Part shown: piece by piece, positions 2,056 to 27,909 of the stretch
Layout: the number at the start of each line of letters is the position of its first letter
Numbering within the stretch: the first letter of the stretch is position 1
IMG/VR virus record: IMGVR_UViG_3300032516_003760
Coordinates: 1-28,285 of that record
Strand: one strand, 5' to 3'
DNA from: a virus
DNA: 28,285 nt
Notes under the pieces: model-generated
Told to the model about the DNA's origin: nothing
Databases searched by the model: none
Seen by the model: the letters and a program-made list of their open reading frames with translations, nothing else
Made by a program: the position numbers and the translations under genes

Positions 2056-2074
2056 CCCCGAAAGCGAGGGCCCG

Positions 2075-3736
2075 ATGGGCATCTTCGACAACCTGCAGAG
2101 GCTGGGCTGGACCGCGGCGCAGCTGGCCGCGGATGGTTTCCAGAAAGCCGCCGCGGTACTTGCTCCGGCAATTGATGACGGGGCCAACACCATGCCGGGC
2201 AATCTGAACGCGGATACGGCGCTCTCCAATCCGGTGCCGACCGAGAAGGCTGAGCAGGACCCCAAGACGCTGTTCTTTGATCCGTTCTCGATCATCGAGC
2301 AGCTGGGCTTCAAGGACCGACCGAGCCAGGTCACATACGGGACGCTGAAGGCGATTACCTGGCGGGTGCCGATCATCCAGGCCATCGTGCAGACTCGCAT
2401 CCAGCAGGTCGCGGCCTTCTGCCGTCCGCAGCACGATCGCTATCAGCTGGGTTATCGGCTGAAGCTACGCGAGCAGCAGAAGGAGCCGAGCCCGGGCGAG
2501 CGGCAATGGATGACCCAGATGGAGAACGTGCTCATCCGCACGGGGATCACGGACAATCCGCGCGGGCGGGACAGCTTCGAGAAGTTCCTACGCAAGATTA
2601 TCTGGGATTCGTTGATCTACGATCAGATGTGCTTCGAGGTGGTGCCCAACAAGCGGGGCCAGCCGGCCGAGTGGTACGCGGTGGATGCGTCGACCATCCG
2701 GCTCGCTGACAGCGCCTCCACGTACATGAACGAGGATCTGGATACGGCCATCCGTTACGTGCAGATCTACGACGGCATGATCATCGCCGAGTACACCTGC
2801 GATGAGCTGTGCTTCATGACCCGGAACCCCAGGACTGACATTCGGCTGCACGGCTATGGGGTGAGCGAGCTGGAGATGCTCATTCCCACGGTGACCAGCA
2901 TCCTCTACGCGATGGAGTACAACCAGAAGTTTTTCAGTCAGGGTTCCGCGGCGAAGGGCATCATCAACTTCAAAGGCACGGTTCCAGAAAAGCAGCTGCA
3001 GGCTTTCCGACGCCACTGGTACCAGATGTTGAGCGGGGTAGAGAACGCCTGGCGCACCCCGATCACCAACTCCGACGAGTTGCAGTACATAAATCTTCAA
3101 CAATCTTCAAGGGATATGGAATTTAACAGCTACATGGATTTCCTCATCAAGATCGCCTGCGCCATGTACACCATCGATCCCGCAGAGATCAACTTCAAAT
3201 ATGGCAACGTCGGCCAGAAGGGCGGCCTCCAGGAGTCGAGCAACAAGGAGAAGGTCGTGGAGAGCAAGGAGCGCGGGTTGCGTCCCTTGCTTCGCCATGT
3301 CGCGCAGGCCCTCAATCAGTACATCATCTGGCCACTCAATGAGGAGTTCGAGTTCGACTTCGTGGGGCTGGATGCGAAGACCAAAGATGAGATCGCTGAC
3401 CTCAACATGAAGCGGGTGAAGTCGTTCTACCTGGTGGATGAGCTGCGCGCCGAGGACGATCTTCCGCCGTTGCCCGACGGGCAGGGCGAGCTGATTCTGG
3501 ATCCTACCTGGCTTCAGTTCACCGCGCAGAAGCAGGCTGCCGCGATGGGCGGGATGCCTGGAGCGGGCTCGCAGATGGGCAACGAGCCCCAGCCGGGCGG
3601 CACTGTTCCGGGGGGTGGCAATCCCGTGGACTTCGAGTCTCTACTTCGCCAGTATGATGGGGAGGACGATACCGGAGAAGACATGAACGCGAGCATGACC
3701 AAGTCGGGTCAAAAGAAGTGGGTAGTGAACCTCTAA
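2075..3736 (+). CDS. Phage portal protein (HK97-type family)
   Basis: The portal is the dodecameric ring at the capsid vertex through which DNA is packaged and ejected and to which the terminase and connector attach. The 553-residue product (MGIFDNLQRLG start) has the usual portal arrangement. There is an N-terminal alpha/beta region, then a GYGVSELEML segment near residue 258, typical of the Phage_portal family. A long stem/wing region with FFSQGSAAKGIINF follows, then a C-terminal tail rich in Gly, Pro and Met. An in-frame ORF extends back to 1919, but the ATG at 2075 has a GAGG ribosome site at about 2066-2069 and avoids a long overlap with the preceding gene, so I chose it. Nonamers lie at 2138 and 2982. 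Confidence 0.93.
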   Translation: MGIFDNLQRLGWTAAQLAADGFQKAAAVLAPAIDDGANTMPGNLNADTALSNPVPTEKAEQDPKTLFFDPFSIIEQLGFKDRPSQVTYGTLKAITWRVPIIQAIVQTRIQQVAAFCRPQHDRYQLGYRLKLREQQKEPSPGERQWMTQMENVLIRTGITDNPRGRDSFEKFLRKIIWDSLIYDQMCFEVVPNKRGQPAEWYAVDASTIRLADSASTYMNEDLDTAIRYVQIYDGMIIAEYTCDELCFMTRNPRTDIRLHGYGVSELEMLIPTVTSILYAMEYNQKFFSQGSAAKGIINFKGTVPEKQLQAFRRHWYQMLSGVENAWRTPITNSDELQYINLQQSSRDMEFNSYMDFLIKIACAMYTIDPAEINFKYGNVGQKGGLQESSNKEKVVESKERGLRPLLRHVAQALNQYIIWPLNEEFEFDFVGLDAKTKDEIADLNMKRVKSFYLVDELRAEDDLPPLPDGQGELILDPTWLQFTAQKQAAAMGGMPGAGSQMGNEPQPGGTVPGGGNPVDFESLLRQYDGEDDTGEDMNASMTKSGQKKWVVNL

Positions 3737-3745
3737 GGAGAAGCC

Positions 3746-4135
3746 ATGCGGATCAAGCATAAAATAGTCGTGAAGGTTGCCGATGACGCCGACATGAAGG
3801 ACTTGCTGTTCTCGCTCGACGATCAACTTGCCGAGGTAGTGATTGACGCCTGGACCAAGTCTTTTTCTGGAAAAGTCACGGTCGCGCTCAACACCAATGA
3901 GGACCTTTCGCTGGGGGATATCGGACTGGTGAAGGGTCTCTACCTCAAGGCCAACAAAGACTGCATAGTCAAGCTGAACGGCGCTGTTACGGGCATCTCG
4001 TTGAAGCGGGCTGGAACGCTGACCACTTGCTTCGCCAAACTGTTTCTGGAAGCGGCCGTCACTTCGATCAACGTAGCGGCGCCAGCCAGCGAAGACACTG
4101 AAGTGCTCTACTGCATTTGGGGTGTGGACGCTTAG
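3746..4135 (+). CDS. Small protein of unknown function between portal and SNF2-fusion genes
   Basis: The product has 129 residues, and its ATG is preceded by a strong AAGGAG site nine bases downstream of the portal stop codon. The sequence alternates hydrophobic and polar residues (IKHKIVVKV, KVTVALN, DCIVKLNGAVTGI), suggesting a mostly beta fold. The end, LYCIWGV, is hydrophobic. No signal peptide or membrane helix is seen. A virion decoration or structural role fits the position but is not shown by any motif. It carries two TTTCTGGAA copies (3864 and 4043) in different frames, encoding FSGK and FLEA. Confidence 0.8.
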   Translation: MRIKHKIVVKVADDADMKDLLFSLDDQLAEVVIDAWTKSFSGKVTVALNTNEDLSLGDIGLVKGLYLKANKDCIVKLNGAVTGISLKRAGTLTTCFAKLFLEAAVTSINVAAPASEDTEVLYCIWGVDA

Positions 4136-4155
4136 GCCATAGAGGGGAGCGAGCG

Positions 4156-7100
4156 ATGCGGCTGGAGTTGCGAGCGAGCCCGGACGAGATCCGGGAGAAG
4201 TCGGGGCAGCTGCTGGAGCGGTTGGGGGAAATGCTGTCTAGCGAGGCTCCAGAAATATCCGAGATGCTGGAGAAAGCTCTGCCGCAGAAGGAACGCGAGC
4301 TGAAGTATCCGGTGCTTCAGGAGCTGGCTGCGCGCACCCGCGAGCTGTACGCGCACCAGATGGATCTCATGATTCAGGAGATTGGGGACACGGTCATCCC
4401 GGGCATCGGCCAAGAGGAGGAAGGGGAGCCGCTGGGCAAGGGCCTCTACATCGGTCCGCATGGGGGCAAGTGGGCCGACGCGGCTCATACCATCCATTGG
4501 ACTGGCGATCAACCAGTCAGTCGCCAGGCACCCGAGCCAGAGGCACCCAAGATTGACCTCTATCCTGAATCCGAGTTGAAGGACAAACTCATCGAGATCG
4601 GCGACGCGCTCTACGCCATGCAGCACGGCATGCACAACGTCATCGACGACACCGGGCTCAACCACTACGATTTCGGCTACTGGCATTCAGTGCGCGGCAA
4701 TATTTCTGGAATGAGCAAGATGCTCAAGAAGTACAAGGGGCAGATCGCTTCCCATTTCGGGGCGGAGGTCTATCTCAAGTGCGGCCTGCACCAAGTAGAG
4801 AAAGCCAAGACCTCCAACTTCACCATCCAGCCCCAGTATCACGATACTTTCGGTTCGCTCTACCTCCCGCTCAATGGTTTCCTGAAGAACGATTTCAAGG
4901 AGTATTGCGAGGTACAGAAGAAATACGGTGGGATCTACGACGGCAACAAGAAGGCCTTCGCGATCAGCAAGCTCAAGCTCGCCAGCTTCGACTTCGCCGC
5001 CTACAAGCAGGACATGGCCAAGTTCGGCATCGAGGTCGCCGATCCCATTGGCGCCCCACCCAAAGTTTCTGGAACTGCGGGGGGCGAAGCGCTCACCGGA
5101 AACAAGGTCGAGGAGTACATCAAGGGCATCAACGCCCACCAGGTCACGGACGTGATCGTGGTGCGCCAGCGCCCTGACGGGATCTTCGAGTTCTACGCGC
5201 CCTATGCCCCAGCCTTCAATAATCTCTTCGCCAACAAGGGCGGACAAATTTCTGGAATCACCAAGTACAACCCGGTCACTCACGCCCGGGAGACCTTTGA
5301 CCTGGAGCTGACTGAAGAGGCAATAGGTAAGCTCACCGTGCTCTTCCCCAAGTGGCAGATCATGACCCACGGGGTGAAGGAAGCGCGGATCAAGCGCGAC
5401 CAGGAGATCGCCGAGCTGCAGAAGCCTATCCCCGAGGTGCAGGCCAAGATCGGGCCTGACCTGAAGCTCATGAGCTTCCAGAACGAGTGCGTGCGTTTTC
5501 TGGATAAGGCCAACGGCAATGCGCTCATCGGCGACGAAATGGGCCTAGGGAAAACGATCCAGACACTTGCCTGGGCGGCTAAGAACAATAAGCGGGTGCT
5601 CGTTGTTTGCCCAAAAGTCGTGCGGCGGAACTGGCTGGAGGAGGCCGAGAAGTTCTTCCCTGGCTATTTCCACGGGGTGGAACTGATCGCTGCGGATTTG
5701 AAGAAGGGGAAGGTCCCTGACCTTTCTGGAATCAACATCGCGGCGGTCAACTACGAGTCGCTCTCCAAGTTCGAGGAGACCATCGCCGCGGCTGGGTTCG
5801 ATACCATCGTGATCGATGAGTCGCACCGCATGAAGAACCCCAAGGCCCAGGCCACCCAGAACATCCAGAAAATCGGCATGGGAATGAAGCACCACATCCT
5901 GCTTTCTGGAACGGCGGTGAAGAACAAGAAGGAGGAGTTGTTCACGCAGCTGGAAATGGTGGCGCCGGGCAAGTTCAGCAAGAACGCGATCAAGACTTCT
6001 CCCATCGGCGGGCTGTGGATGGACATGCACGATGTGTACATCGCCCGGCAGAAGACCGCGGTGCTCAAAGATCTTCCAGAAAAGACCACCTCGATCGTCA
6101 AACACCCGGTCCCTGGACTGCCGGACATGGGGGCGCAGAACACGGTCGGGGCGATCAGCAAGCTCAAGGCCGAGATTGCCAAGGGCAAGGTGCCGGTCAC
6201 GATCTCCATGGTGCAGGAGATCCTGGACACCTCCGACTCCAAGGTGATTGTGTTCACCGACTCGGTCGAAGCGGCCAAGGCACTCCAGGAAAAGTTCGGC
6301 GCGCTGGCGATACTCAACCACGGACAGCTATCGGACGATGAGCGCGAGGCGAACAAAAAAGAGTTCCAGAAAAAAGACGCGGCTGGCAACTTCATAAGCG
6401 AGAAGCGCGTCTTTGTTACCACCCGTCAATCCATGGCTGTAGGGGCGACGCTGACTGCGGCCGATAAGGTGGTCTTCAACGACCTGCCCTGGACGGCGGC
6501 CGATGTCAGGCAGGCGGAAGATCGTGCTCATCGCATCGGGCAGAAGAACGCGGTCAACGTCTACTGGATGACCGCCGAGGGCAATCTTTTCGATGAGAAC
6601 GTGAACGACATCTTGCGCCGCAAGTACGAGCTGGGCCAGAAGCTGAACCAGGGCAAGCAGCTGACCGCGTCCGAAATGGAGTGGTTGAGCACGCCGGTGT
6701 CGATTGAGGAGTTGATCGCTCAGATTCACGGGAAGGCTGCCGGACCCAAGGGGGGCGGAGCAGCGGAGGAGGCTGCTCCCCAGGTCCCGGCCTTGGCTGA
6801 CATGGCTCACCCCGAGCTGGCCCCCAATCTGCCCGAGCCCCAAACGGCTGGCACCGAGGTGTTGCCCGGTTCGGCGACGGTGGTGGAGGTTCCCTGGCAG
6901 GAGGTGCCTTCGGCCAGTTCTGGAGTGGACAAGCCGCTGACCGTGGAGATGCTGGACAAGTTCTATGCGCAGGTTATCAAGGAGTCCGAGCCCGCGCCCA
7001 AGCCGGTGAGCCCCCCTAGCAAGTTTGTGGTAGACCCCGCTGGGATTGCTGAATCGTTCAATGAAGCGCAAAAACAGACCGACGCGCATGTGAAAGGGTA

Positions 7101-8937
7101 CTCAGATAAACTCGATGCGCTGCCGGAGGGCACGGCAATCCATCTGGGGTACGGGCAATCGTTTACCAAAACGAATATCGCTGGCGATCCCTTTTGGATT
7201 TGGGAAGGGAAGGGCGGCAAGAAGAAGGGGTATCTAGCTTCGTCGGAAGCATTCGATCAGATGGGCCATAAAGCCGCCGACAAGGCGATAGCCGCAATGC
7301 AGGAGCCCGCGCCCGAGAAGGCCCCAGAAGCAGTGAAGCCGCCAGCAGTCCAGGCTCCGATCGATGTGCCTGTGCCGGTACCGGTTCCAACGCTTGCGCC
7401 TGAGCATGGTGCTGCGCCGGCACAGGCTTTTTCTGGATTCATCCAGAAGCACGGGATCAAGATCAAAGAGCACTACGGTGACCCGAGCAAGGTGATGGTC
7501 AAGGTGCCCAAGCACGAGACCGACGCCTTGGCCAAACTCCAGGAGTACGGGATCACCGAGCCTACCTTCGAGGGCGGCCAGTACCATCTGGTGGCGATCG
7601 ACAAGCAGAAGGTGAAGGACCTATTGTTCGCCAAGTCGCTGGGCGATTTTCTGGAATTGGAAGATCCTGAAGACGAGCAGCTCTCGCTGTTCAAGGGCGG
7701 CATGTTTATCGGCCCGCGGGGCGGCAAGTGGGCGGACCCGGAGCACACTATCCCTTGGCAGGAGGAGGGGACTGGAGGCGGTGCGGGGGCGCCTGCGGGA
7801 GGCCAGACAGTTTCGGGTGGGGACCGGACAGTTTCGGGTGGAGGAGCGCAAGCGGCTTCGGCTCCCCCACCGCAGATGGGTGCGCCGACCCCCGCCGCCC
7901 AGATCGCTCCGCAGATGCAGACCACTCCCCGGGCTCCCCAGGCCGGGCTGACCCCGCCGGCCGGCGGAGACCCGCTGGCCTATCAGGTCGACCCCTCGGT
8001 GGACGCCGACGGGGACGGAGTGGCCGATGCGGCCCGGGTGGGGCTGCCGGGCAAGACCGTGGCTCCCCCGCCTACCGTCCCCCGGTTGCCCAACCTGACC
8101 TCGGAGGAGCGAGCGGTGGAGGGCAGGTTCGCTGACGCCTACGAGGCGGATCCTGCCGGGATGGCTGACGCCTTCTATGACGTGGCCGAGAAAAACCACT
8201 TCATTTTCGAGACCGACGCGGCCAAGAGCATGATGCCCGAGTGGACCCGGCCCGACTTGCCCCCCGACGAGAAGGGCAAGCCCATTCACCCCGAGCGCGC
8301 CCAGGCCCGGGCGCTCTACAACACCGCGCTCCACCAGACGGCCAACGCGGTGGTCAAGCGTGCCTTCATGCGACGGCTGGACGAGATCGCCAAGATGCCC
8401 GAGGGCGAGCGGAAGATTCTGGTGACCAGCGGCGGGGTGGCCGGCGGGAAGGGCTCCGCGCTGGGTGCGCGCCCCGAGCTAGCCCAGAGCGTGGCCGCGA
8501 CTTGGGATGCCGCGGGCGAGCAGAACGGGACCGAGAACCCCTGGTTGATGGAGGAGTGCGAGAAGCGCGGAATCAAACCAGTTTTTCTCTTTGTGGCTGC
8601 TGACCCGATGGCTACTTGGCCGGGTGCGGTGGATCGCGCGAAAAGCATTGGGCGCATGGTCGACGCCCGGCTGTTCGCCGACAGCTACGCTCACGGCGCC
8701 AAGAACTTCTCGGCCTTCCATGCGAAGAACAAGGACCGGGCGAGTTTCGTTTTCGCCAAAGCCAAGAAGGGCGACCCGGTGCAATTCCTGGATCAGATGC
8801 CCCCGGAAGCGCTTTCGATGGACGCCGAGGTGCTCTACGGCCAGGCCATGCAGTACATCCAGAGCAAGGCGGCTGAGCTGCCGCCGCACATCGTCTCCGG
8901 CGCGACGGCCGGTTCCAGAATTTGGGGTGGCGCATGA
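4156..8937 (+). CDS. SNF2-family helicase fused to zeta-toxin-like kinase domain (putative packaged protein)
   Basis: The product has 1593 residues. Residues 1-90 look coiled-coil. A GPHGGKWADAAHTIHW module lies near 101. Residues about 200-300 form an unassigned alpha/beta region. A complete SNF2 ATPase core follows: DEMGLGKT (Walker A, about 460), DESH (about 553), LSGTA (about 582), a second RecA domain with VIVFTDS (about 700), and QAEDRAHRIGQ (motif VI, about 785). Pro/Ala linkers and a shared alpha/beta module (about 1090-1160) lead to a second GPRGGKWADPEHTIPW copy (about 1186). The C-terminal 250 residues contain a P-loop, GGVAGGKGS (about 1425), and a DARLFADSYAHGAKNF segment like zeta-toxin kinases. 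An ATG at 4117 would overlap the upstream gene; 4156 has a GGGGAG site. Phage P1 DarB, an injected antirestriction protein, also carries a SNF2-type helicase, so an anti-defence role is a reasonable inference. Confidence 0.9.
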   Translation: MRLELRASPDEIREKSGQLLERLGEMLSSEAPEISEMLEKALPQKERELKYPVLQELAARTRELYAHQMDLMIQEIGDTVIPGIGQEEEGEPLGKGLYIGPHGGKWADAAHTIHWTGDQPVSRQAPEPEAPKIDLYPESELKDKLIEIGDALYAMQHGMHNVIDDTGLNHYDFGYWHSVRGNISGMSKMLKKYKGQIASHFGAEVYLKCGLHQVEKAKTSNFTIQPQYHDTFGSLYLPLNGFLKNDFKEYCEVQKKYGGIYDGNKKAFAISKLKLASFDFAAYKQDMAKFGIEVADPIGAPPKVSGTAGGEALTGNKVEEYIKGINAHQVTDVIVVRQRPDGIFEFYAPYAPAFNNLFANKGGQISGITKYNPVTHARETFDLELTEEAIGKLTVLFPKWQIMTHGVKEARIKRDQEIAELQKPIPEVQAKIGPDLKLMSFQNECVRFLDKANGNALIGDEMGLGKTIQTLAWAAKNNKRVLVVCPKVVRRNWLEEAEKFFPGYFHGVELIAADLKKGKVPDLSGINIAAVNYESLSKFEETIAAAGFDTIVIDESHRMKNPKAQATQNIQKIGMGMKHHILLSGTAVKNKKEELFTQLEMVAPGKFSKNAIKTSPIGGLWMDMHDVYIARQKTAVLKDLPEKTTSIVKHPVPGLPDMGAQNTVGAISKLKAEIAKGKVPVTISMVQEILDTSDSKVIVFTDSVEAAKALQEKFGALAILNHGQLSDDEREANKKEFQKKDAAGNFISEKRVFVTTRQSMAVGATLTAADKVVFNDLPWTAADVRQAEDRAHRIGQKNAVNVYWMTAEGNLFDENVNDILRRKYELGQKLNQGKQLTASEMEWLSTPVSIEELIAQIHGKAAGPKGGGAAEEAAPQVPALADMAHPELAPNLPEPQTAGTEVLPGSATVVEVPWQEVPSASSGVDKPLTVEMLDKFYAQVIKESEPAPKPVSPPSKFVVDPAGIAESFNEAQKQTDAHVKGYSDKLDALPEGTAIHLGYGQSFTKTNIAGDPFWIWEGKGGKKKGYLASSEAFDQMGHKAADKAIAAMQEPAPEKAPEAVKPPAVQAPIDVPVPVPVPTLAPEHGAAPAQAFSGFIQKHGIKIKEHYGDPSKVMVKVPKHETDALAKLQEYGITEPTFEGGQYHLVAIDKQKVKDLLFAKSLGDFLELEDPEDEQLSLFKGGMFIGPRGGKWADPEHTIPWQEEGTGGGAGAPAGGQTVSGGDRTVSGGGAQAASAPPPQMGAPTPAAQIAPQMQTTPRAPQAGLTPPAGGDPLAYQVDPSVDADGDGVADAARVGLPGKTVAPPPTVPRLPNLTSEERAVEGRFADAYEADPAGMADAFYDVAEKNHFIFETDAAKSMMPEWTRPDLPPDEKGKPIHPERAQARALYNTALHQTANAVVKRAFMRRLDEIAKMPEGERKILVTSGGVAGGKGSALGARPELAQSVAATWDAAGEQNGTENPWLMEECEKRGIKPVFLFVAADPMATWPGAVDRAKSIGRMVDARLFADSYAHGAKNFSAFHAKNKDRASFVFAKAKKGDPVQFLDQMPPEALSMDAEVLYGQAMQYIQSKAAELPPHIVSGATAGSRIWGGA

Positions 8938-10775: not shown

Positions 10776-10777
10776 GG

Positions 10778-16098: not shown

Positions 16099-19000
16099 AT
16101 GAATTCACTACCAGCTTTCTATTTTCTGGAACCGGAGCCGCTGGTCAAGGCACTGGTCAAGACCGCGAAAATCAAGATCAATCTGGGAAGCTGGCAGGGC
16201 CTACCGATCATCGCCTACGGTCCGCGGAACGGGAAGATTGTCGGCTACAAGTCTAACGGCAAGCCCATCTACGCCGGCAGCTCCGCCGCTCAGCAGTTGG
16301 TCGCCATCCTCCAGGCCAAGCACGCCTACACCCCCGAGCAGCAGGATGTGGCCCTGGTGAAGTGGCTCCTGGAGCTGGGTCTCCAGGGGGCGATAGACGC
16401 GGAACAGGTTCACTTGTCCAAGGAGGGAGCCAGCCTCCTCCAGGAAGCGTTCTCCTTGACCCCGCAGCCCCTCGGCGGGGGGAAGTGGGCGGTGAGTAAG
16501 GCCTCTCTCCTCCCCCACCTCGGAGAGCCCCTGCGGCCTTCTGAGGAGAAACAGACCGGGTGGGCGGCGGAGATGGCTAGCGGGCAGTACGGGGACGGGT
16601 CGTTTCCCCCGCTCTCCGAGCTGACGGAGCTTCCGGCCGGGAAGTTCGCAGGGTCTCACGGCAACCTGTTATTTGTAGACAAGGGTGGGCACAAGTGGGT
16701 TTTCAAGGCTTCCGATCCCATCATCGCTAGAGCGGAAGAGGCCGCCTGCCGGCTGGGGCGTCTGCTTCTGGGGAACCTGATTCCGGCGGTCAAGTACGTG
16801 GAAGTCAAGGGGAAAGGTGGAGCGCTTATCCAGATTCTGGAAGGGCAAACCTGGCAGGAGAGTTCCAGCCAGCACTCCGACCCCCAGATGGAAAACCTGA
16901 AGAAGTACAAAGAGTTGATCATCAAACACCAGGTGGTTGACTGGCTTGTTTCCAACCATGACTCGCATGCTGGGAATTTCCTGAGTCAGGGTGGACAGTT
17001 GGCGGCCATCGACAAGGGGCAGAGTTGGAAATTCCTGGGCAAGGACAAGCTGGAGGCGGACTATTCCCCCAACCCTAGCCACCCGATATATAACAAGTTC
17101 TGGGAGAAAATCTCCGAGGGAGCGATCGATCCGAAGGGGCTCATCGAGGCGGTGGCCGATGTAGTGAATCGTGCGGACCAGATATCTCCTGAGCAATTTC
17201 AACTGATTGTCGCTCCTTACGTGTCAACGGCCTCTGGTTGGACGCACGCGGACCCGCAAGCGCAGCTCCAGAAAATGCTCTCACGCCTTCAGAATTTGCG
17301 CTCGGATTTTGAAGGGTTCCTGAGCAAGGAGCTGGGGAAGAAAGTGGTGCTGCCGAAACCCGAGACGGTCCAGGTAGCCTGGGAGGTAGCACCCGGGGAT
17401 AAGCCAGCGACGCCGGCGGTGAAGAAGCCCCCAACCAAGCTGGAGATCCCTCTCGCCCCGGCGGTCCCGGTGGTTCCAGAATCGCCGCCGAAGCTCAAGG
17501 CGGTGGAAGTCGCCCCGGTGGTTGCCGGGAAGGCTAAGGCTGGTTGGCCGCTCACGAAGAAGGGCGGCAAGTCGGTCGAGGTGACCATCCACACCCCGGG
17601 CGTGGTTCCGGCCAGCTGGTGGCCGCCGGGAGTGCCCGCACCCGGGATGAAGCTGACCACTGTGTACAAGGGCAAGCAGTACGGGCTGGAAGTCGGCGAG
17701 AACTGGGAAGGGAAAAAGCCGTCGTTCGTGGTGACTTACCCGGACGGAAAGATGGTCGGGTTTACCTCGCTCAACGCGGCTGGCGATAGCTTGTACTTGT
17801 TCAACCAGGGTTTGCCGCTCACGCTGAGCGCGACTGAGAAGAAGGCCAAGGGCATCTCGCTGGGGAGCAAGGTCTTCCAGCTCAAGCTCTTTGAGCAGGA
17901 GCTGTCCGAGGCCGCGGGCAAGGCCGAGGAGCCACCCGCGCCGGTGACCCAGACCGTTGCCGAGCTGGAGGAGCAGAAGGTCGTTGCCCCTGAGCAGAAG
18001 TCGGTCACGGTGTTGGGGCTGTTGGGAAAGTTGATAGATGGCGCGATATTCAACCCAACCGCTGCGTTACCGCAAGAGGTGAAGGAATTTCTCGCGGCGT
18101 ACCAGGGGACTGACCAGCTGACCACGGCCTGGAATTTGGCGTTGACGCCGGGCTACGCGGTGAAGGTCACTTCGTCGGTCGTGGGCACGATGCTGATTAC
18201 CGCGCGGCTGGGCAAGGAGGGGCATCCTGAGTTGTGGGGCTGGTGGGAAGGGGCGGACGGCACGCTCCAGCACTCGGTTTGGTCTGGGGTAATGGCGTCG
18301 AAGTTCGAGAAGGAATATGGGCTGGACACCCACGGTACTCTCGACGATTTGAAGGGCGACTACCTGAAATCGGCGGAGGCGGAGGAGAAAACCGCGCAGC
18401 ATATTGCGCCCGCGGGTGCCCCGCCAGAGGCCATCCTACCGGCGACCGCGGTGGTTCCAGAAAGCGCGCCGAAGTTCACCGAGGGACCGCTCGCCAAGGG
18501 CACGGTCATCAAGGTGAAAAAGAAGGTACCCGGCTACGAGAAGAAGCAGGAAGTCACGCTCACCGTTCTCCAGAATGGACAGTTGCTGGTGGAGATCCCC
18601 GGGCAGACCGCGCAGACCTTCCTGACGCTGAGTGCCGCGTCGGATCATGTCTGGGTTGTCCAGAAAGGATTCACCGATGCTGCGGACTACAAAGCCAAAA
18701 ACAAAACCAACAAAGTCCCTTCTGGGGGTGGATGGAAGTTTTGGGGTATCAGTCCAAAAGCGGTTCCGGATACTCCAGCAAGTGAACTGGGTGCTGGAGC
18801 TGGCCCTGTTCCTGCTCCTGTTACTATTGCTCCTCCAGTTCCTGGGCCAGGAGTCGCCGTTCCCATCGGAACTGATCCCGTAGTACCAAAGGGCGGGGCT
18901 ACCCTGGAATTTCTGGAAGCCGCTGCATACGGAACCAAGATTCAGACCGACGACGGCAAAGGTAACAAGACCGTCTACGAGAAGCTCTATGGGGGCAAAT

Positions 19001-22000
19001 GGAAGGTGACGCTGATCAACAAGTTTGCGTCGGCAGACACGGCGGAAATAACTACTGCTGAAGCCTACAACATGATGCAGGACGAGAAGATCGAATCATG
19101 GGAAGGGCTGGGCGCGCCGGTTCCAGAAAAAGCGGGCGGGAAGTTTCCCACCGACCTGGAAGCGTTCTCACAGTTGCCTGTGTGGACTACCGCCCAGACT
19201 AAATCGAGTTGGGGCGCGACGACCACTTACGTCAAGGAGGCCGCGGACAAGTGGATGGCCATGCCTGAATCGGGTGAATCTCAGAGCTATGATGACATTC
19301 AAGCGTTGGGGGCGATCAACGGCGAGAAGCTCGACGCCTGGAAGTTGGGCGTGGATAAGAAACCCGCGGCAATCCCCAGCGGCCCGCTGCCTCCGCCGAG
19401 TCTGGAGCAGATCAAGGCCTACCCGCTGGGCACCAAGGTTCATGTGAATGTGAATGCGCATTCCCATCCTTCTTATGTGTATGTCAAGACAGCGGCGGGT
19501 TGGAGCAATTTAGAATCGGGAAATACATACAAGGATCTGACGGTAGCCAATTCTTGGAAACAGCCGTTCAATGAGATCACCAAGATCAAAGTTCCAGAAA
19601 AAGAGGAGAAGCCCGGTGAGGGGGGTCTCCAAGCCCAGCTAGAGCTGCTGATAAAAACCGGAGACTTCGCGTTTTTGCCGAAGGGCACGGTTATCCAAAG
19701 CGAGTCCAAGAGTGGGGCGATCCAGTATAAATACGTCAAGGAGTCCGACAATTTCTGGAAGACGTATTCAGACGGAACCAATGTGGGATCGCTCAGTAGC
19801 GACGTGGTGGCTACTGAGTTGAAGGGCGCAGTCATCACAAGTTGGAAGAAGCCTGGAGGGGCGGCGTTTACTCCAGAGACTGAATCCACCCCAGCCGAGG
19901 AAGTGTCCCCGGAAGTACCTTCGATCGGCAATCAGGTGGAGCTGGTCAACCAGATCAAGGCCTCGGCGAAGCTGGGGGGAATTTCTGGATTCGGGGGCAT
20001 CGTTAAGGCGCTCATTGCATTGCCGGCGGGGATCGTGCTCAAGACTGAGGGCACGATGGGCCAGGAGTACCAGTACCAGAAGCAAGCCGACGGGTCTTGG
20101 GCTACGGTATCCGGCGGGTTGAACCTGGTGACGGGGATCCCGCCGGGCTCATTGGCAACTGATCTGGAGCATGAAATTATCACGGCGTTTACCCCTGCTG
20201 GTCAGCCAGTCGTTCCAGAAAAAGATAAGGCCGCCAAGGGGGCTCCGCCGTTGTTGATGAAGCCTGTAGCGGATTTTCCGAAGGATAATCTGGAGGCTTT
20301 CAAGAAACTGCCTATTGGAACCACGGTGCTAGCCACCACTGCGTTTGGGAATACGTGGACGTATACCAAAACCGGAGAGAATTCCTGGAGTTCCAAAAGT
20401 CCCGTGACGGGTAAAACACACCCGGAGGTTCCTGATCATGCCTTGTTCGCGGACGTGGCTACTGAAACGGTGGTCACGTTCGGGGTGCCGACGCAAAATC
20501 TCCCAGCTACTTGGGAGGAGTTTGGCAAAATTGCGGAGGGTAAGGTAAGCGGAAAGCAGACCGTGACCAACTCCGAGTATGCCCCGTACCTGAACAACCC
20601 TGCTAAATTTAGCGCGCTCCCGGTGGGTACGGTGATCAACACCCAGCATAAGACGGGAAACACCTACGAGTACACCAAGCTTGCGCCGGATGCGTGGGAA
20701 ATAGTTAGCAGTGGAGGGCAGAAATACGCCTTCCACGATACAAATGCGCTCCCTGATATTAAGGGTGAAACCATCCTGAGCTGGGCGCAGCCGGTGGGCA
20801 CAGTGTTTCCAGAAAATGTGCATACCGACTACAGTACGCTGCCCACGATAGTGCAGGATGTGCTTTCTGGAATTAAAGACAGTGCGGAGAAGGGGAAGAC
20901 CCCCAAAGACGGCGCGACCCATGCCCCGGTTGAGAAGCCGTCTGGGTGGGCGGATTGGGTGCCTCCACCCGGGGTGATAGTGTCTGGGGAGTGGCAGGGC
21001 AAGAAATACTACGTGATCAACGGGCAATTCGGTTACCCCGTGGGGTCAGACACCCCCAACAAGCTGGTGCAGTTTGGCATCGTTGATGAGGACGGTAAAA
21101 TCCATCTGGGCTCAACGGGCGAGGACCCGGACGATGCGCTCGCCTATGCGCTGACCGCGGCAGGGATCGGTACCTCGGCCGCGCAGTTCAAGGAGGTCTG
21201 CGGGCTCGGCAAGATCACCTTCCCGGTAGGGTCGAGCATCTACAATCTTTCTGGAACGCAGAACCCCCTGGCGAGCAAGCCAGTTGCCCAGATGACTCCG
21301 GCGGAGAAAGCCACCAAGGTCAAGACCTCCATGGCGCTCCAGGACGCGCTCAAGACCCACCCGCTGCTCCAGGAGGGGATGCTCAAATTCAAGAAGGCCA
21401 AGGGCACGGCCATGTACGTGTGCCTGGACGGGGTGGAAGGCGCCAGTACCAAGCTCTACAACGCGTTCAAAGAGCTGGGCGTCGAGCACCACATCAAGAA
21501 CAAGGGCGGGCTACCCAAGGTCAACGCCCAGGGCGCTTTCGTGACCATCGACGGCCAGGTGCTCAAGTACACGCAGGTCGAGGTGGAGACCACCGCGCTG
21601 GAGTCGTCGAGCGTCAAGCACGAGCCCAGTGACCCCAACTGGCAGACCATGCCCGAGGCCAAGCCCAAGCCCAAGAAGAAGAAGACCAAGGCCCAGCTGG
21701 CCGCCGAGAAGGAAGCCGCCAAGAACCTTGAAGCGGCCAAGCAGAAGGCCGTCGCAATCAAGGCCTGGGCGGTAGCGCATCCACCGATGACCGACAAGGG
21801 CCAGCTCCAATTGCTAGCCTATCTGCAGAAGGATTTCGCCAGCTACCAGATCCCGGTGGGAGTCATCGCGCGGGTGGAGGACGGGGCGCTGGTGCTCTCC
21901 CATAAAACGCACCAGAAGCAGCTTGCCTACTACTTGAAGTTGCTCCAGGCGGGCGAACCCTTTCAGGTGGAAGCAATCGAGACGCCTTGGGGCGAGGCGG

Positions 22001-23808
22001 TCAAGGTCGATATCGACGGGATCCAGAAGGCGCTGGAGAAGAAGTTCAAGGTAGGTATCGGCAAGATGATCACTGGCCCCGACGGCAAGCAGTATCCGGA
22101 TGGGACCACGTTCCAGAAAAAGACCTCCGAGCACAAGGTATCCGATCTGATTTCGTCCGAGCCGGGGTTTTACAAGATCAAGGAGCACGCCACCGACCCA
22201 GAGAACCTCGCTTTCCTCAAGGTGTCCGGCACCAGTCCGGAGTCGATGGCGCAGATGAAGGCCATCATCGTCAAGTACGGACTGGAGAGCCCGCACGCGG
22301 AGCCCAAGCTGGGATCGGGCTCAGTGGTACATTCGATCTTCAAGAAGTCGTTGGAGAAGGTGTACAGTTCCGAGGAGACCTACCAACCCACCATTCCCGA
22401 GCAACCGGATGATTTTGTCCAGAGCGGGTTGCCGTATGTGGATACCGGAGAATATTGGGCAGAAGTCGGAGACGGGTCGGCGGATCTCGTGGATGTGGCT
22501 TCGATCAAACCTTCGCGCTACGGGCATGCGATTCGCGTGGGTGCCCCCGGAGAATTGCGTGATTTTTGCATCCGCTTCCGTCGGGTAATAGATCCTGTAG
22601 GGCAGCTGTACTACGAGTTCACCGGGGATCTGGTGCAGTTCGACGGGATGAGTTCCAAACTAGGTAGCGGTAAATCAAAGTTCGGATCTACTCTTGGGGC
22701 CACCATTCCCGGGCCAGACGGTGATATTTTAACTACTATTGGTTTTGATACTGATACTGGGACGCATACCGAATACGATTCTTCAATTTCCGGTGCTCCG
22801 AATTACGATGGATTTTTCGGCAAGACCGATGCAGGTAGCTCCATCATGGTCATTCCCCCCAGTAGCATGCAAGATACGTTCAAAAATACTTTCCGGGTGC
22901 GAATTCCAGCGAGCGAGAATCCGTTGAGCGAACTGCGGGAAGCGCTCCAGAAAATGGGCAAGGACCCGGACAAGGTTCTTGCACCCATTACCGAGGACAG
23001 CGATCGTATCTATAAGAAGTCGGTTCTGGTGCGCGGATTGATGGGAGCTTCGGGCTGGAACGATGACAAGTTTCCGTTGGGGGTGATGCACGATGAGAGT
23101 TGGCTGGATAGTAAACTTTCCGTTTTTGGAAGCAAGGGGATGGTGAGCGGGTTGAAGGTAGTAAAGACCTTTGACAATCAGCTCTCAGTGATCGCGGATG
23201 ACGCTGAGCAATTCAAGCACTGGTCTTTCCCTTACGTTGGCGCGGGCCTTGACGGGACCTTCCTTCAATTTATGCAGGGGTCGGGCTGGGCGAGTAGAAA
23301 GAATTGCCTCATGCACGGGGTCTGGCACGGGGGCCAGTCGCCTGGACCGGACATGCAGTCCGGAGGATCGAAGGGTGCTTTCTTTCGGGTGGCTGGTAAA
23401 GGATCTGAGATGAGCGAATCGTATGAATGTCAGATCATTTTCCATCCGCGGCTATTCAAGCGAGTTGATTGGTGGCGGTACAATGGGGATGGTTACGGCA
23501 ACACCAACTCAAACTCTAAGCATGGGCATACTGTAAGCCAAGCACCTAAACGGAAGGATGCTGATCTGAATAGCACGAACGAGATTTTGTTTGAGGGCGG
23601 CGTAGGCCTGAAGGACGCTATCGCGGTAGTAATTGGGAATGAGAGCAAACGCCAGCAGTTGATTGCCGCGCTGAAAAAGGCAGGCAAGACTGAGGTCAAT
23701 GGAAAGTCGCTGGAGGATTTTTTTATTAGAAAGATTCATAAGGGTGCTGACGCTTACGCTACGCCAGCGAAGTTTGCTGCGGCGCTGGGCATCACGCCGC
23801 TGGAGTGA
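16099..23808 (+). CDS. Giant multidomain protein: kinase-like domain, beta-repeat array, C-terminal ART-like domain
   Basis: The product has 2569 residues. A GPRNGKIVGY module lies near residue 41. Residues about 160-430 resemble HipA/PI-kinase-like phosphotransferases: VFKASD (Lys for ATP), DWLVSNHDSHAGNFL near 281-295 (catalytic loop with Asp, His and Asn), and AIDKGQSWKF near 304 (metal-binding Asp). Pro/Val linkers follow, then two modules near 515 and 798 resembling small RAMA-type beta domains. At least seven copies of a repeat of about 85-115 residues start near 941, 1026, 1108, 1193, 1308, 1404 and 1508 (pattern LPxGTxV, YxYxK, W, then IxSW). Residues about 1770-2100 hold more alpha/beta units. 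The last 450 residues contain MHGVWHGG, SGGSKGAFFRV and STNEILFEGGVGLKDA. These recall a C-terminal domain of long actinophage proteins that may be ADP-ribosyltransferase-like; this is from memory and unverified. It is probably a packaged or injected protein. Confidence 0.85.
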   Translation: MNSLPAFYFLEPEPLVKALVKTAKIKINLGSWQGLPIIAYGPRNGKIVGYKSNGKPIYAGSSAAQQLVAILQAKHAYTPEQQDVALVKWLLELGLQGAIDAEQVHLSKEGASLLQEAFSLTPQPLGGGKWAVSKASLLPHLGEPLRPSEEKQTGWAAEMASGQYGDGSFPPLSELTELPAGKFAGSHGNLLFVDKGGHKWVFKASDPIIARAEEAACRLGRLLLGNLIPAVKYVEVKGKGGALIQILEGQTWQESSSQHSDPQMENLKKYKELIIKHQVVDWLVSNHDSHAGNFLSQGGQLAAIDKGQSWKFLGKDKLEADYSPNPSHPIYNKFWEKISEGAIDPKGLIEAVADVVNRADQISPEQFQLIVAPYVSTASGWTHADPQAQLQKMLSRLQNLRSDFEGFLSKELGKKVVLPKPETVQVAWEVAPGDKPATPAVKKPPTKLEIPLAPAVPVVPESPPKLKAVEVAPVVAGKAKAGWPLTKKGGKSVEVTIHTPGVVPASWWPPGVPAPGMKLTTVYKGKQYGLEVGENWEGKKPSFVVTYPDGKMVGFTSLNAAGDSLYLFNQGLPLTLSATEKKAKGISLGSKVFQLKLFEQELSEAAGKAEEPPAPVTQTVAELEEQKVVAPEQKSVTVLGLLGKLIDGAIFNPTAALPQEVKEFLAAYQGTDQLTTAWNLALTPGYAVKVTSSVVGTMLITARLGKEGHPELWGWWEGADGTLQHSVWSGVMASKFEKEYGLDTHGTLDDLKGDYLKSAEAEEKTAQHIAPAGAPPEAILPATAVVPESAPKFTEGPLAKGTVIKVKKKVPGYEKKQEVTLTVLQNGQLLVEIPGQTAQTFLTLSAASDHVWVVQKGFTDAADYKAKNKTNKVPSGGGWKFWGISPKAVPDTPASELGAGAGPVPAPVTIAPPVPGPGVAVPIGTDPVVPKGGATLEFLEAAAYGTKIQTDDGKGNKTVYEKLYGGKWKVTLINKFASADTAEITTAEAYNMMQDEKIESWEGLGAPVPEKAGGKFPTDLEAFSQLPVWTTAQTKSSWGATTTYVKEAADKWMAMPESGESQSYDDIQALGAINGEKLDAWKLGVDKKPAAIPSGPLPPPSLEQIKAYPLGTKVHVNVNAHSHPSYVYVKTAAGWSNLESGNTYKDLTVANSWKQPFNEITKIKVPEKEEKPGEGGLQAQLELLIKTGDFAFLPKGTVIQSESKSGAIQYKYVKESDNFWKTYSDGTNVGSLSSDVVATELKGAVITSWKKPGGAAFTPETESTPAEEVSPEVPSIGNQVELVNQIKASAKLGGISGFGGIVKALIALPAGIVLKTEGTMGQEYQYQKQADGSWATVSGGLNLVTGIPPGSLATDLEHEIITAFTPAGQPVVPEKDKAAKGAPPLLMKPVADFPKDNLEAFKKLPIGTTVLATTAFGNTWTYTKTGENSWSSKSPVTGKTHPEVPDHALFADVATETVVTFGVPTQNLPATWEEFGKIAEGKVSGKQTVTNSEYAPYLNNPAKFSALPVGTVINTQHKTGNTYEYTKLAPDAWEIVSSGGQKYAFHDTNALPDIKGETILSWAQPVGTVFPENVHTDYSTLPTIVQDVLSGIKDSAEKGKTPKDGATHAPVEKPSGWADWVPPPGVIVSGEWQGKKYYVINGQFGYPVGSDTPNKLVQFGIVDEDGKIHLGSTGEDPDDALAYALTAAGIGTSAAQFKEVCGLGKITFPVGSSIYNLSGTQNPLASKPVAQMTPAEKATKVKTSMALQDALKTHPLLQEGMLKFKKAKGTAMYVCLDGVEGASTKLYNAFKELGVEHHIKNKGGLPKVNAQGAFVTIDGQVLKYTQVEVETTALESSSVKHEPSDPNWQTMPEAKPKPKKKKTKAQLAAEKEAAKNLEAAKQKAVAIKAWAVAHPPMTDKGQLQLLAYLQKDFASYQIPVGVIARVEDGALVLSHKTHQKQLAYYLKLLQAGEPFQVEAIETPWGEAVKVDIDGIQKALEKKFKVGIGKMITGPDGKQYPDGTTFQKKTSEHKVSDLISSEPGFYKIKEHATDPENLAFLKVSGTSPESMAQMKAIIVKYGLESPHAEPKLGSGSVVHSIFKKSLEKVYSSEETYQPTIPEQPDDFVQSGLPYVDTGEYWAEVGDGSADLVDVASIKPSRYGHAIRVGAPGELRDFCIRFRRVIDPVGQLYYEFTGDLVQFDGMSSKLGSGKSKFGSTLGATIPGPDGDILTTIGFDTDTGTHTEYDSSISGAPNYDGFFGKTDAGSSIMVIPPSSMQDTFKNTFRVRIPASENPLSELREALQKMGKDPDKVLAPITEDSDRIYKKSVLVRGLMGASGWNDDKFPLGVMHDESWLDSKLSVFGSKGMVSGLKVVKTFDNQLSVIADDAEQFKHWSFPYVGAGLDGTFLQFMQGSGWASRKNCLMHGVWHGGQSPGPDMQSGGSKGAFFRVAGKGSEMSESYECQIIFHPRLFKRVDWWRYNGDGYGNTNSNSKHGHTVSQAPKRKDADLNSTNEILFEGGVGLKDAIAVVIGNESKRQQLIAALKKAGKTEVNGKSLEDFFIRKIHKGADAYATPAKFAAALGITPLE
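18919..20800 (+). repeat. Array of at least seven degenerate protein repeats in the giant gene
   Basis: Diverged repeats start near 18919, 19174, 19420, 19675, 20020, 20308 and 20620. Each encodes a small beta unit with an L-P-x-G-T opening, an aromatic YxYxK strand, a conserved Trp about 27 residues in, and an I/V-x-S/A-W/F closing strand. Each is separated by a Pro/Glu linker that often contains VPEK, encoded by the nonamer. DNA identity is low, so these are old duplications. Confidence 0.7.
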
Positions 23809-24480: not shown

Positions 24481-25305
24481 ATGCAGGTATTTGATTTCGA
24501 TCTTCCAGTATCGTTCTTCGAGAAAGCCGACGCGGAGCCGGGCAAAGAACGGCGCATCGGTGGCATCGCTACTCTGGAGACCAAAGATCGCCAGGGAGAA
24601 ATCATCCTTGCCAGAGGGGTCGATTTCTCGGATTTCGTCCAAAATGGGTGGTTCAATGACAACCACTCCAAGAACACCACCGACATTTTGGGCTACCCTG
24701 AGCAGGCCAAGTTTTTCCGAAAGGGATCCGCGCTACCCAATGGCGAGACGGCCAAGGCGGCTGGGCACTGGGTGGAAGGGTATCTGCTCAACACCCCCGG
24801 CGCCGACAAGGTCTGGGAGTTGGGCCGTGCTCTCGCCCAGACCAATCGCCGGCTGGGATTCTCGGTTGAGGGGAAGATCGAGAAGCGCACGGGTCCGCTC
24901 CAGAAAACCATCGCCAAGGCGCTGGTGCGCAATATTGCCATTACTAACTGTCCGGTTAACGCGGGAGCGCGGATGGAGATCTTGGCCAAGAGCCTTCAGG
25001 CAGCGGGGCTCGACGAGGAGATGGAGAAGATGCTGGGCATGGGCACCGCTACGCCTGGCGCTCCGGTCGTTGGCCCGCAGAGCGGCATGGGCGCTGGGCG
25101 GGTGGTCACCGGCGAGAGTCTGGAGCACGACGAGACCAACACCGCGGCAGATGAAGACGAGAAGAAGCGCAAGAAGCGCGTGAAGAAATCCATGACGGAA
25201 GGTGGGGCGTTTGTGTGGCTGCGCGCCCGGCTGCCGCACGCCACCCCGGAACAACTCGGGCGCATCATCACCCTGACCCGTGCCGCTAAAGCGCGGGGCA
25301 AGTGA
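24481..25305 (+). CDS. Prohead protease (HK97-type, serine protease)
   Basis: The product has 274 residues. The assemblin-like fold cleaves scaffold and other head proteins during capsid maturation. The likely catalytic His is H62 in WFNDNHSKN and the likely Ser is S128 in LGFSVEG, the usual spacing for this family. The start of the fold (RIGGIATLETKDRQGEII) and GHWVEGYLL are also typical. Residues after about 185 form an added acidic, then basic tail (KKRKKRVKK) and end in a conserved-looking helix. An ATG at 24391 is in frame, but it would translate the terminator stem. The ATG at 24481 has GGTGAGG at 24469-24475 and begins where the family does. The position just before the scaffold and capsid genes supports the assignment. 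Confidence 0.9.
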   Translation: MQVFDFDLPVSFFEKADAEPGKERRIGGIATLETKDRQGEIILARGVDFSDFVQNGWFNDNHSKNTTDILGYPEQAKFFRKGSALPNGETAKAAGHWVEGYLLNTPGADKVWELGRALAQTNRRLGFSVEGKIEKRTGPLQKTIAKALVRNIAITNCPVNAGARMEILAKSLQAAGLDEEMEKMLGMGTATPGAPVVGPQSGMGAGRVVTGESLEHDETNTAADEDEKKRKKRVKKSMTEGGAFVWLRARLPHATPEQLGRIITLTRAAKARGK

Positions 25306-25316
25306 AGGAGAGAGGC

Positions 25317-26153
25317 ATGGCAACGACCCAGGAGAACGACAAAGTCGATGAGGAAGAGGGCGGAGAAAGCGTGGGCGACGGCCAGGATGAGGGCGAGATG
25401 GACAAGTGCGGCGGCGTGAAGAAGGGCTGCGGCACGAAAAAGGCTGAAGACCTCACCGAGGACGATCTGGAGAAGTCGATCGAGCAGCTCCAGTCGCTCA
25501 CCGAGGGAGCGGGCCCGTCCCGCAAGCAGACGCTCCTGGAGAAGGCCCAGGGCGCCGAGCTATCCAAGAGCGAGCGGATCGAGCTGTTCGAGCTGCTCGG
25601 CAAGAGCGAGGCATCCAAGGCATCGCTCAGCTCCGAGATTACCAAAGGGCTGACCGAGAACGACACGCTGCAGAAGGCGCTCGACGTGAGCGACTTTCTC
25701 ACGGAGCAGCACAACGAGCTGGTCAAGTCGCTGACCGGGCTCGCCGACGCGCTGGAGAAGTCCGACGGCCGACAGCACGAGTTCAACCTGGTGCTTGCCC
25801 GCGCGGTCTCCGGCATCGGCCAGCTGACCAAGGGGCTGGGCGAGCGAGTCGGGATCATCGAGTCCCAACCTGCCCGCGGTCCCAAGAGCAGGGGCGTCAC
25901 CGGCGCACAGGCGCTGGAGAAGTCCTTCGCTGGGGCAACTCAGCCGTCCGGCGGGATCTCCAAGGGGGCGGTGCTCGATGAGCTGGAATTGATGGTCCAG
26001 GAGTCGGTGTCGAAGTCGCTCAACGGAGCGACCGAGGATGGAGTCGATCTGGTCATGGCCAGCTCGAAGTACGAGCAGTTCAATCTGATCAGCCAGGGAT
26101 TGCTCGATCAGGTGCAGCAGAGGATCCAGAGCAAGAAAGCGGCTGCCCGCTGA
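25317..26153 (+). CDS. Putative capsid scaffold protein
   Basis: The product has 278 residues with an AGGAG site six bases before the ATG. The N-terminal 40 residues are very acidic with two Cys. The rest is Lys-, Glu-, Leu- and Ser-rich and predicted helical or coiled-coil, with a few KS-containing repeats (LEKSIEQLQSL, ALEKSDGR, ALEKSFAG). It ends in a Gln/Lys-rich helix. The composition, and the place between the protease and major capsid genes, are those of a scaffolding protein that directs prohead assembly and is later degraded. There is no sequence motif that proves it. An in-frame GTG at 25302 is a poorer start. Confidence 0.7.
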   Translation: MATTQENDKVDEEEGGESVGDGQDEGEMDKCGGVKKGCGTKKAEDLTEDDLEKSIEQLQSLTEGAGPSRKQTLLEKAQGAELSKSERIELFELLGKSEASKASLSSEITKGLTENDTLQKALDVSDFLTEQHNELVKSLTGLADALEKSDGRQHEFNLVLARAVSGIGQLTKGLGERVGIIESQPARGPKSRGVTGAQALEKSFAGATQPSGGISKGAVLDELELMVQESVSKSLNGATEDGVDLVMASSKYEQFNLISQGLLDQVQQRIQSKKAAAR

Positions 26154-26212: not shown

Positions 26213-26472
26213 ATGGAAGCCAACATGGTGAGCTGGAAGGATTACGAGGGCATCGAGGGATTCGGGGCCGCCACTCAGGCAGATGTCGATTCGCTCAACA
26301 AGGCCCTCCTGGCCGGCCAGGCCATCACGGGCCCGGGCGGAACGGCCGGAGACGGCTTCGCGCTCCGCGTGGAAAGCCTTGAAAGGACGCTGAAAAATAC
26401 CACCTACCGGATGGAGCATATCCGGTTCTGGAAGGCCATCCCGAAGCTGCCCGCGTACAACACCGTCAACTT
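26213..26472 (+). CDS. Major capsid protein, exon 1 (HK97 fold)
   Basis: Exon 1 encodes about 87 residues (MEANMVSWKDYEGIEGFGAA start), the N-terminal arm of an HK97-fold capsid protein, up to PAYNTVN. Without splicing, the frame runs 20 bases into the intron-like sequence and stops at 26494, giving a 93-residue dead-end product. The text RVESLERTLKN, RMEHIRFWK and IPKLPAYNTV is that of phage major capsid proteins, which continue directly into the SQYGSN...GFISEGDLP text coded from 26752. The end of exon 1 is 26472 (CTT|) or 26473 (CTTT|). Paired with exon 2 starts at 26736 or 26743, these give in-frame proteins of 477 or 475 residues. I prefer the first pairing because the intron then ends in ATG, as in T4 introns. 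Confidence 0.85.
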
Positions 26473-26735: not shown

Positions 26736-27909
26736 CGAAGAGCACAACGAGATGAGCCAGTACGGGTCGAACCCGGATGCTGGCTTCATCTCCGAAGGAG
26801 ATCTTCCCGAGGAAGACGACGCGATCTACACGAGAAAATACCACATCGTGAAGTACCTCGGGACCACCCGCAAGGTGTCCCACGTCATGAGCCTGGTGAA
26901 GCCGGCCCATGGCAACGTGGTCGCGCAGGAAACGGTCAACGGCACCATGCACCTGCTCCGGATTCTGGAGCGGGCGCTGTTCTACGGGGACAGCAGCTTG
27001 TCCGCCCTCCAGTTCGACGGCATGGAAAAGCTCATGAAGGATCTGTGCCCGGCGACCAACATCATCGATCTCCGCGGTCTGCCGCTGAGCGAAGATCTGC
27101 TGACAGATGGAGCACTTACGGTCCAAGATGCGCCCAACTACGGCACGCCCACCCACCTTTTCCTGAACCCTAAGACCAAGACGGATTTGGTCAAGACGTT
27201 CTTCCCCAAGGAGCGGCACGACACGTTCCAGAAACAGGGCGGCTTCATCGGTCTCGACATCAAGGGCTTCACGTCCCCTGCCGGTGACGTGCTGTTCGAG
27301 CCAGACGTGTTCATCACCGACGGTGGCGCCCCCAACGCCGGAGCCCTGGGCGACCAGACCAAGCGCCCGGGCACCCCGACCAACTCCACCGGCGCAACCG
27401 CTCCGACGGAGGCGCTGGGCAAGTTCGTGGCCGACGACGCTGGCGACTACCGCTACAAGGTCGTCGCGGTGAACCGCTTCGGCCGTTCGGCTCCGCTGGC
27501 GTTCGGAGCCGCGGTGACCGTGCAGGCTGGCGACAAGGTGACCTTCGGCCTGACCCCCTCCAGCGCGACCACCGGCTGGTACGAGATCTACAGGACGAAG
27601 AAGAACGGCGCGCTCGGCACCGAGCGACTCATCCTCCGGGTGCCCAACGCGGCTGGCGCGGGCGAGACCATCGTCAACGACTTCAACGAGAACCTGCCCG
27701 GCTGCACCTCGGCCTTCCTGTGGCAGCTCAACCTGGAGTCCATGAGTTTCAAGCAGTTAGCCCCGATGGTCAAAATCCCGCTGGCGACAATCGACAGCAG
27801 TATCAGATGGATGCAGCTCCTGTACGGAACTCCCGTACTTTACACACCTGGTAAGAATGTTCTCTACAGGAACATCGGCCGGGCGACGGGGTACGTCGGC
27901 TCACCGTAA
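26736..27909 (+). CDS. Major capsid protein, exon 2 (HK97 fold with Ig/Fn3-like insertion)
   Basis: Exon 2 encodes about 390 residues; an ATG at 26752 makes it look like a separate gene, but it has no ribosome site. It continues the capsid fold with GFISEGDLPEEDD (E-loop region) and YLGTTRKVSHVMSLV, followed by the P-domain helix and beta strands. From about 27370 to 27690 it holds an inserted domain after a Pro/Thr linker. GDYRYKVVAVNRFGRSAPL and GWYEIYRTKK are the strands of an immunoglobulin/fibronectin-III-like fold. HK97 text resumes with TSAFLWQLNLESMSFKQLAP and ends LYRNIGRATGYVGSP. The insertion probably projects from the capsid surface. A nonamer lies at 27226. Confidence 0.9.

Follow-up and report, generated by a model that had tools for sequence, protein, structure and literature searches.

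What is the role of a 2,569-residue protein that is encoded among the head genes of a virus, and for which searches with the whole protein return no match in Pfam, PHROGs or the sequences of the PDB? The question is raised by a gene in the IMG/VR virus record IMGVR_UViG_3300032516_003760, all 28,285 bp of which are termed the window here; the protein is termed P0001. An initial annotation, made from the letters alone, had proposed a kinase-like head, a body of beta repeats and an effector-like tail. The analysis described here suggests that P0001 is probably a polyvalent effector that is carried in the virion and injected, the product of a head-gene module, in which a kinase is combined with a fast-changing ADP-ribosyltransferase (ART) tip. 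Polyvalent and MuF-type effectors are already known. P0001 would be a variant of these, marked by the pairing of this kinase with an ART in a head-module effector and by an ART domain missed by both Pfam and PHROGs.

The end domains of P0001

The open reading frame runs from ATG to stop without interruption (zero internal stops), exactly where it was first placed, and the four motifs singled out at that time, NHDSHAGN, AIDKG, HGVWHGG and NEILFEGG, are all present. Full-length homologues are found on four independent contigs (L002, L004, L005 and L006), and a further locus, L003, covers the N-terminal 1,588 residues. In the kinase region, most differences between the window and L002 fall on the third base of a codon, which is what constraint on the protein would produce. 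The gene and its two end domains are as follows.

16099..23808, plus strand: gene of the 2,569-residue protein P0001 (open reading frame; orthologues)
16546..17343, plus strand: predicted kinase domain of PI4KII/CtkA/HipA type, residues ~150-415 (AlphaFold2 model, VIA, hhalign)
16705..16707, plus strand: K203, candidate ATP-binding lysine (conservation)
16954..16977, plus strand: NHDSHAGN catalytic loop, residues 286-293 (D288 and H290 invariant)
17005..17019, plus strand: AIDKG, residues 303-307, with D305 the candidate metal-binding aspartate (D305 invariant)
23197..23781, plus strand: predicted ART-fold domain of DarT/KptA type, residues 2367-2561 (AlphaFold2 model, VIA)
23581..23583, plus strand: E2495, candidate catalytic glutamate (conservation)

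Is the head a kinase? The AlphaFold2 model of residues 1-890, made with a 28-sequence alignment, has a mean predicted local distance difference test score (pLDDT) of 84, mostly above 90 within the kinase. All 50 of the VIA matches listed for it are kinases, among them PI4KIIalpha (Z 14.8), CtkA (14.3), MavQ (12.8), Fam20 (12.5), CotH (12.0), HipA (11.5) and HipT (11.1-10.9). HipA is also the top Foldseek match (E 2e-4), and a profile-profile comparison with 16 HipA proteins by hhalign gives 96% (E 3.6e-9 for a single comparison) with the catalytic loops paired; the control profiles DarT and KptA give 0.4-2.3%. K203, D288, H290 and D305 are 100% conserved in 68 sequences, and N293 of the catalytic loop is replaced by Q in MuF-class relatives. 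In the model, the catalytic loop is followed by helices at 330-412, which VIA aligns to kinases; a helical C-lobe is kept. This confident model points to a kinase of the PI4KII/CtkA/HipA type at residues ~150-415, and the HipA/PI-kinase-like head of the initial annotation is supported. There is no Pfam match to HipA (PF07804) in P0001, and relatives give sub-threshold matches only. Matches of the kinase profile among PDB sequences were judged to be due to chance. No HipA-type kinase in a phage head protein turned up in a literature search, but the search was limited and does not rule out their existence. Bacterial genomes also contain relatives of the kinase; going by record title, many of these genomes are Desulfobacterota.

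And what is the tail? The annotation had called it effector-like and suggested a check for an ART fold, which was run on an AlphaFold2 model of residues 1480-2569 (mean pLDDT 80; ~90 over most of the last 450 residues) and led to DarT and KptA. The top five VIA matches to residues ~2367-2561 are all ARTs, four of them DarT (Z 9.5, 8.8, 8.6 and 7.8) and one KptA (7.2), and the next row in the list is unrelated, with a Z of 5.3. Foldseek alone places DarT1 sixth (E 0.12, probability 0.98). Viral predicted structures that match the tail model include a pithovirus protein (E 2e-4), a baculovirus open reading frame and IIV-6 422L. A survey describes an arthropod-virus ART family, ORF28, which need not include these proteins, as DarT-related (PMC9503650). 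In a sample of 51 tails, 39 of the MuF class and 12 of the window class, there is no variation at G2407, D2418, G2422, G2423, D2464 and G2467, and 97-100% have E2495. One of the two C-terminal motifs stressed earlier, NEILFEGG (residues 2494-2501), carries a near-invariant residue, but HGVWHGG (2406-2412) is not conserved beyond close relatives except for G2407. Taken from the model, an ART fold of the DarT/KptA type at residues 2367-2561 is supported.

Several points weigh against this assignment and against the proposal as a whole. The window subfamily does not keep the first-strand histidine of MuF-class tails (HHxLT), so its binding of NAD+ may be altered or absent. Comparison of the tail with DarT sequence profiles gives 2.9%, which is no link, and the ART assignment therefore rests on one AlphaFold2 model. 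P0001 itself has no match to MuF (PF04233) with Pfam at E up to 1. The profile failure says little, since DarT and KptA are mutually undetectable in the identical test (1.1%), which is powerless at such distance. In the weak, non-significant profile alignment of tail and DarT, E2495 is opposite the AEFL glutamate of DarT. DarT (PF14487) has no match in P0001 with Pfam at E up to 1, residues 2367-2561 are not recognised by Pfam or PHROGs, the adjacent 112-residue open reading frame has no Pfam match at all, and no DarG-like macrodomain was found in the other window proteins scanned. The single match of the tail profile among PDB sequences, to 2leq (E 0.0027), falls outside the ART, in linker-like sequence, and was discarded. 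Hypothetical proteins of Streptomyces and Kitasatospora plasmids (L189 3570-5504; L190 3129-5423) also have C-termini that match the DarT-like tail, with ~30% identity. In L190, an ADP-ribosylglycohydrolase gene lies downstream.

Recurrence of the pair and divergence of its ART end

Is the combination of kinase and ART peculiar to P0001? A search of viral contigs with the kinase alignment gave 221 relatives, the best 80 of which were kept; the sample is biased because the search was seeded from the window family, and the loci are partly redundant, with 51 distinct tails. The kinase is paired with this tail in 57 of the 63 phage proteins that have complete C-termini. Other ARTs are found in five of the six exceptions: PF03496 in three (Aikoy gp15, prophiFSQJ01-1 gp54 and the L065 protein) and DRAT in two (L081 and L089, apparently identical proteins, of which only L081 was scanned for DRAT). 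The sixth, L066, has a complete C-terminus with neither this tail nor a Pfam ART. All complete kinase open reading frames examined are of at least 828 residues, and a free-standing kinase was not seen among them. A MuF head domain, behind which the pair often stands, is present in 11 of 24 sampled relatives, and 12 of the 24 match the PHROG phrog_6577, which has no assigned function. Mycobacterium phage Phrappuccino gp195 (2,030 residues; L009 5635-11724) has an N-terminal kinase with several ART-type repeats behind it, as judged by eye. In two of the kinase proteins (L065 5755-10896 and L066 4678-7767) there is a NUDIX domain as well, and products of ADP-ribose could be processed by it.

Might the kinase be a built-in regulator of the ART rather than an independent effector, silencing it in the producing cell or virion, or switching it on after injection? 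The kinase is nearly always joined to an ART, and ARTs of differing families fill the tail position, as a regulator would lead one to expect. Pseudanabaena phage Pan1, however, has MuF and this tail on a protein without a recognised kinase, which indicates that the ART can occur without it. A purely regulatory kinase is possible but doubtful.

Divergence from the near-identical phage L002 is concentrated at the ART end, too.

23001..23800, plus strand: block diverged from the near-identical phage L002 (nucleotide comparison)

The window and L002 are 98-100% identical over most of 16 kb, but in these ~800 bp, which reach to the end of the gene, nucleotide identity is 62-95%, with flanks of 97-100%; the last ~270 residues of P0001 have 72-84% amino acid identity. 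The block fits a recombinational exchange with a divergent allele, or strong diversifying selection, and may be a sign of an arms race. Was an immunity gene exchanged along with it? The 112-residue open reading frame after the gene is 99% identical between the window and L002 where the ART differs, and it was rejected in that role. Elsewhere, ~270 bp of the intergenic region ahead of the major head protein gene (26401-26800) are missing in L002.

Could P0001 be a structural internal head protein in which both domains are enzymatically dead relics? Its gene belongs to a head module, and the first-strand histidine is missing from the ART of the window subfamily. But kinase catalytic residues that are invariant in diverse sequences and a near-invariant E2495 are unexpected of relics, and the divergence is concentrated at the ART end. 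This explanation is very unlikely.

The repeat body and the head module

Between the two ends there is a long body.

17548..17916, plus strand: body domain R1, residues 484-606, related to R2 and R3 (hhalign)
18451..18768, plus strand: body domain R2, residues 785-890
18907..20802, plus strand: seven tandem ~70-residue beta repeats of LPxGT type, residues 937-1568 (hidden Markov model)
20866..21174, plus strand: body domain R3, residues 1590-1692
21271..21648, plus strand: domain R4, residues 1725-1850, related to R5 (hhalign R4-R5 81%)
22048..22383, plus strand: domain R5, residues 1984-2095

At least seven beta repeats had been predicted, and a hidden Markov model built from the P0001 body finds seven tandem copies at 937-1568 (domain E 1e-17 to 1e-30). 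As the model was seeded from the window's own repeats, the independent part is the count in orthologues: eight copies in L002, six in L004 and in L006, and four in L005. The hhalign values are 60% for R1-R2 and 74% for R1-R3. The GW.FW ending of 484-606 and 785-890 had raised the suspicion of RAMA, a modified-DNA reader, which was dropped after a profile comparison gave 1.6-3.2%. No fold is claimed for R3-R5 and 2104-2366, because the VIA list of the C-terminal model barely tests them.

Is the body part of an extended tail, or a passage (translocation) device, with an enzyme at each end? The length of the protein and the variation of copy number among alleles would suit either, but the gene is in a portal-protease-scaffold-major capsid protein (MCP) module and not in a tail module, and relatives with the same enzyme pair are MuF head proteins, which makes such a device scarcely credible. 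Among the structural options offered initially, an internal, delivered protein fits better than a tail structure, which is made unlikely by the place of the gene in a conserved head module, with the portal gene on one side and the major capsid gene on the other. The neighbouring genes are listed below.

1919..3736, plus strand: portal protein
4117..8937, plus strand: giant protein with SNF2-type helicase, 1,606 residues
12037..15447, plus strand: giant protein with InPase and PolyA-polymerase head, 1,136 residues
23811..24149, plus strand: 112-residue open reading frame of unknown function, after the P0001 gene
24391..25305, plus strand: head maturation protease
25302..26153, plus strand: head scaffolding protein
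26752..27909, plus strand: major head protein

The gene order is portal, SNF2 helicase protein, a 444-residue protein of unknown function, an N6/N4 methyltransferase (10772-12046), the InPase/PolyA-polymerase-head protein, P0001, the 112-residue open reading frame, head protease, scaffold and major head protein. L002-L006 keep most of this order as far as the loci reach, without the methyltransferase. The position from portal to MCP and the MuF head relatives count for delivery, and P0001 is probably head-delivered. For the major head protein, the nearest matches are in SPO1-type Bacillus phages (37%), several relatives are on contigs of 97-110 kb, and no terminase was recognised in the window by Pfam and PHROGs scans.

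Do the neighbours hint at an antirestriction or DNA-protection factor with a role like that of DarA/DarB? Here an injected DarT-like ART, with the neighbouring helicase, methyltransferase and nucleotidyltransferase, would shield incoming phage DNA, and the kinase would tune it. The neighbouring giant proteins bear the SNF2 helicase and the InPase, the InPase stretch of 12037-15447 matches a DarB-like antirestriction PHROG, and DarT is a DNA-modifying ART (PMC9503650). Membership in DarT by sequence fails, however, and the fact that other phages have this kinase on PF03496 or DRAT ARTs does not point to a shared role in protecting DNA. Characterised ARTs of these two families modify proteins. 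DNA protection is an unlikely function.

Other features of the module deserve mention. The syntenic loci L003-L006 lack a counterpart of the N6/N4 DNA methyltransferase gene, and the genes on either side of it adjoin there; by gene order, it looks like a recent insertion here or a loss elsewhere. In the giant protein at 12037-15447, an InPase domain is joined with a PolyA-polymerase/tRNA-nucleotidyltransferase head domain. A 680-residue open reading frame (13-2055) directly before the portal gene has weak zinc-ribbon-like matches near its C-terminus and no PHROG match. In every close relative, the 112-residue open reading frame (57-99% identity) begins a few bases past the giant gene, and it is found again in L013, L021 and L039; it is a candidate chaperone, regulator or immunity gene.

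How might a head-delivered P0001 act? T4 Alt, MuF and the polyvalent proteins serve as models (PMC5512222, PMC9503650): like them, it would be packaged in the capsid, injected with the DNA and act early. Once in the host, the HipA/PI4KII-type kinase at the N-terminus would phosphorylate a target, and the ART at the C-terminus, of DarT/KptA fold, would move ADP-ribose from NAD+ to host nucleic acid or protein early in infection; the beta-repeat body may be a length-variable spacer or docking scaffold between both enzymes. A more sweeping version envisages a large unannotated phage class, in which a virion kinase is coupled to a DarT-like ART that modifies host or phage DNA right after injection, with phages swapping the ART tip as a cassette under the pressure of an arms race, and with the kinase as a built-in switch. 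This version is rather unlikely. If the proposed effector is real, it reveals an enzyme pair that is widespread in phages (the kinase search matched 221 viral contigs) and that current family libraries miss at both ends, and it joins HipA/PI4KII-type kinases to ADP-ribosylation in head-encoded proteins. It would also put a DarT-fold ART on the phage side, whereas DarT is known as an anti-phage toxin of hosts, and the allele divergence at the ART end would be a direct handle for finding the ART target or the host immunity evaded.

Comparison with known systems

Which known systems does P0001 resemble? Like polyvalent proteins (Iyer et al., 2017; PMC5512222), it is a large multidomain phage protein that joins enzymes and is encoded beside virion genes, and, like them, it is predicted to be injected. 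Polyvalent proteins have at least two distinct effector-type domains in one polypeptide, and P0001 has the predicted kinase and ART folds; its gene is among virion genes, from portal to MCP, in a conserved head module, and the neighbour at 12037-15447 carries an InPase of the kind described for these proteins (PMC5512222). ARTs are their commonest modifying enzymes (PMC9503650). The kinases of Iyer et al. have lost the C-terminal lobe and are mainly from Verrucomicrobia/Chlamydia and Bacteroidetes elements (PMC5512222), whereas the P0001 kinase, which is HipA/PI4KII-like, still has a helical C-lobe. The DarT-like tail corresponds to no named domain in Pfam or PHROGs.

HipA, HipT, CtkA and PI4KIIalpha share with the P0001 kinase the fold (Z 11-14.8), the catalytic lysine, the loop aspartate and the metal-binding aspartate. 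Unlike HipA, P0001 has no PF07804 match and no HipB-like partner annotated alongside, and in the complete open reading frames examined the kinase is always a domain of a large phage protein. The tail has the predicted fold of DarT (of DarTG) and KptA (Z 9.5-7.2), but, compared with DarT, it has no PF14487 match and no DarG-like partner found beside it, and it is fused to a giant phage protein. MuF-fused effectors and the mycobacteriophage minor capsid-ADP-ribosyltransferase fusions (for example BK061312 gp54) combine the same kinase (27-30% identity) with an ART behind it, likewise in the product of a head gene; those records leave the kinase unnamed, and P0001 differs in having no MuF match and an ART of another family. 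Phage T4 Alt is a head-packaged ART that is injected to act as infection starts, as is proposed for P0001, which would be packaged likewise, with an ART from a different family and a kinase added to it.
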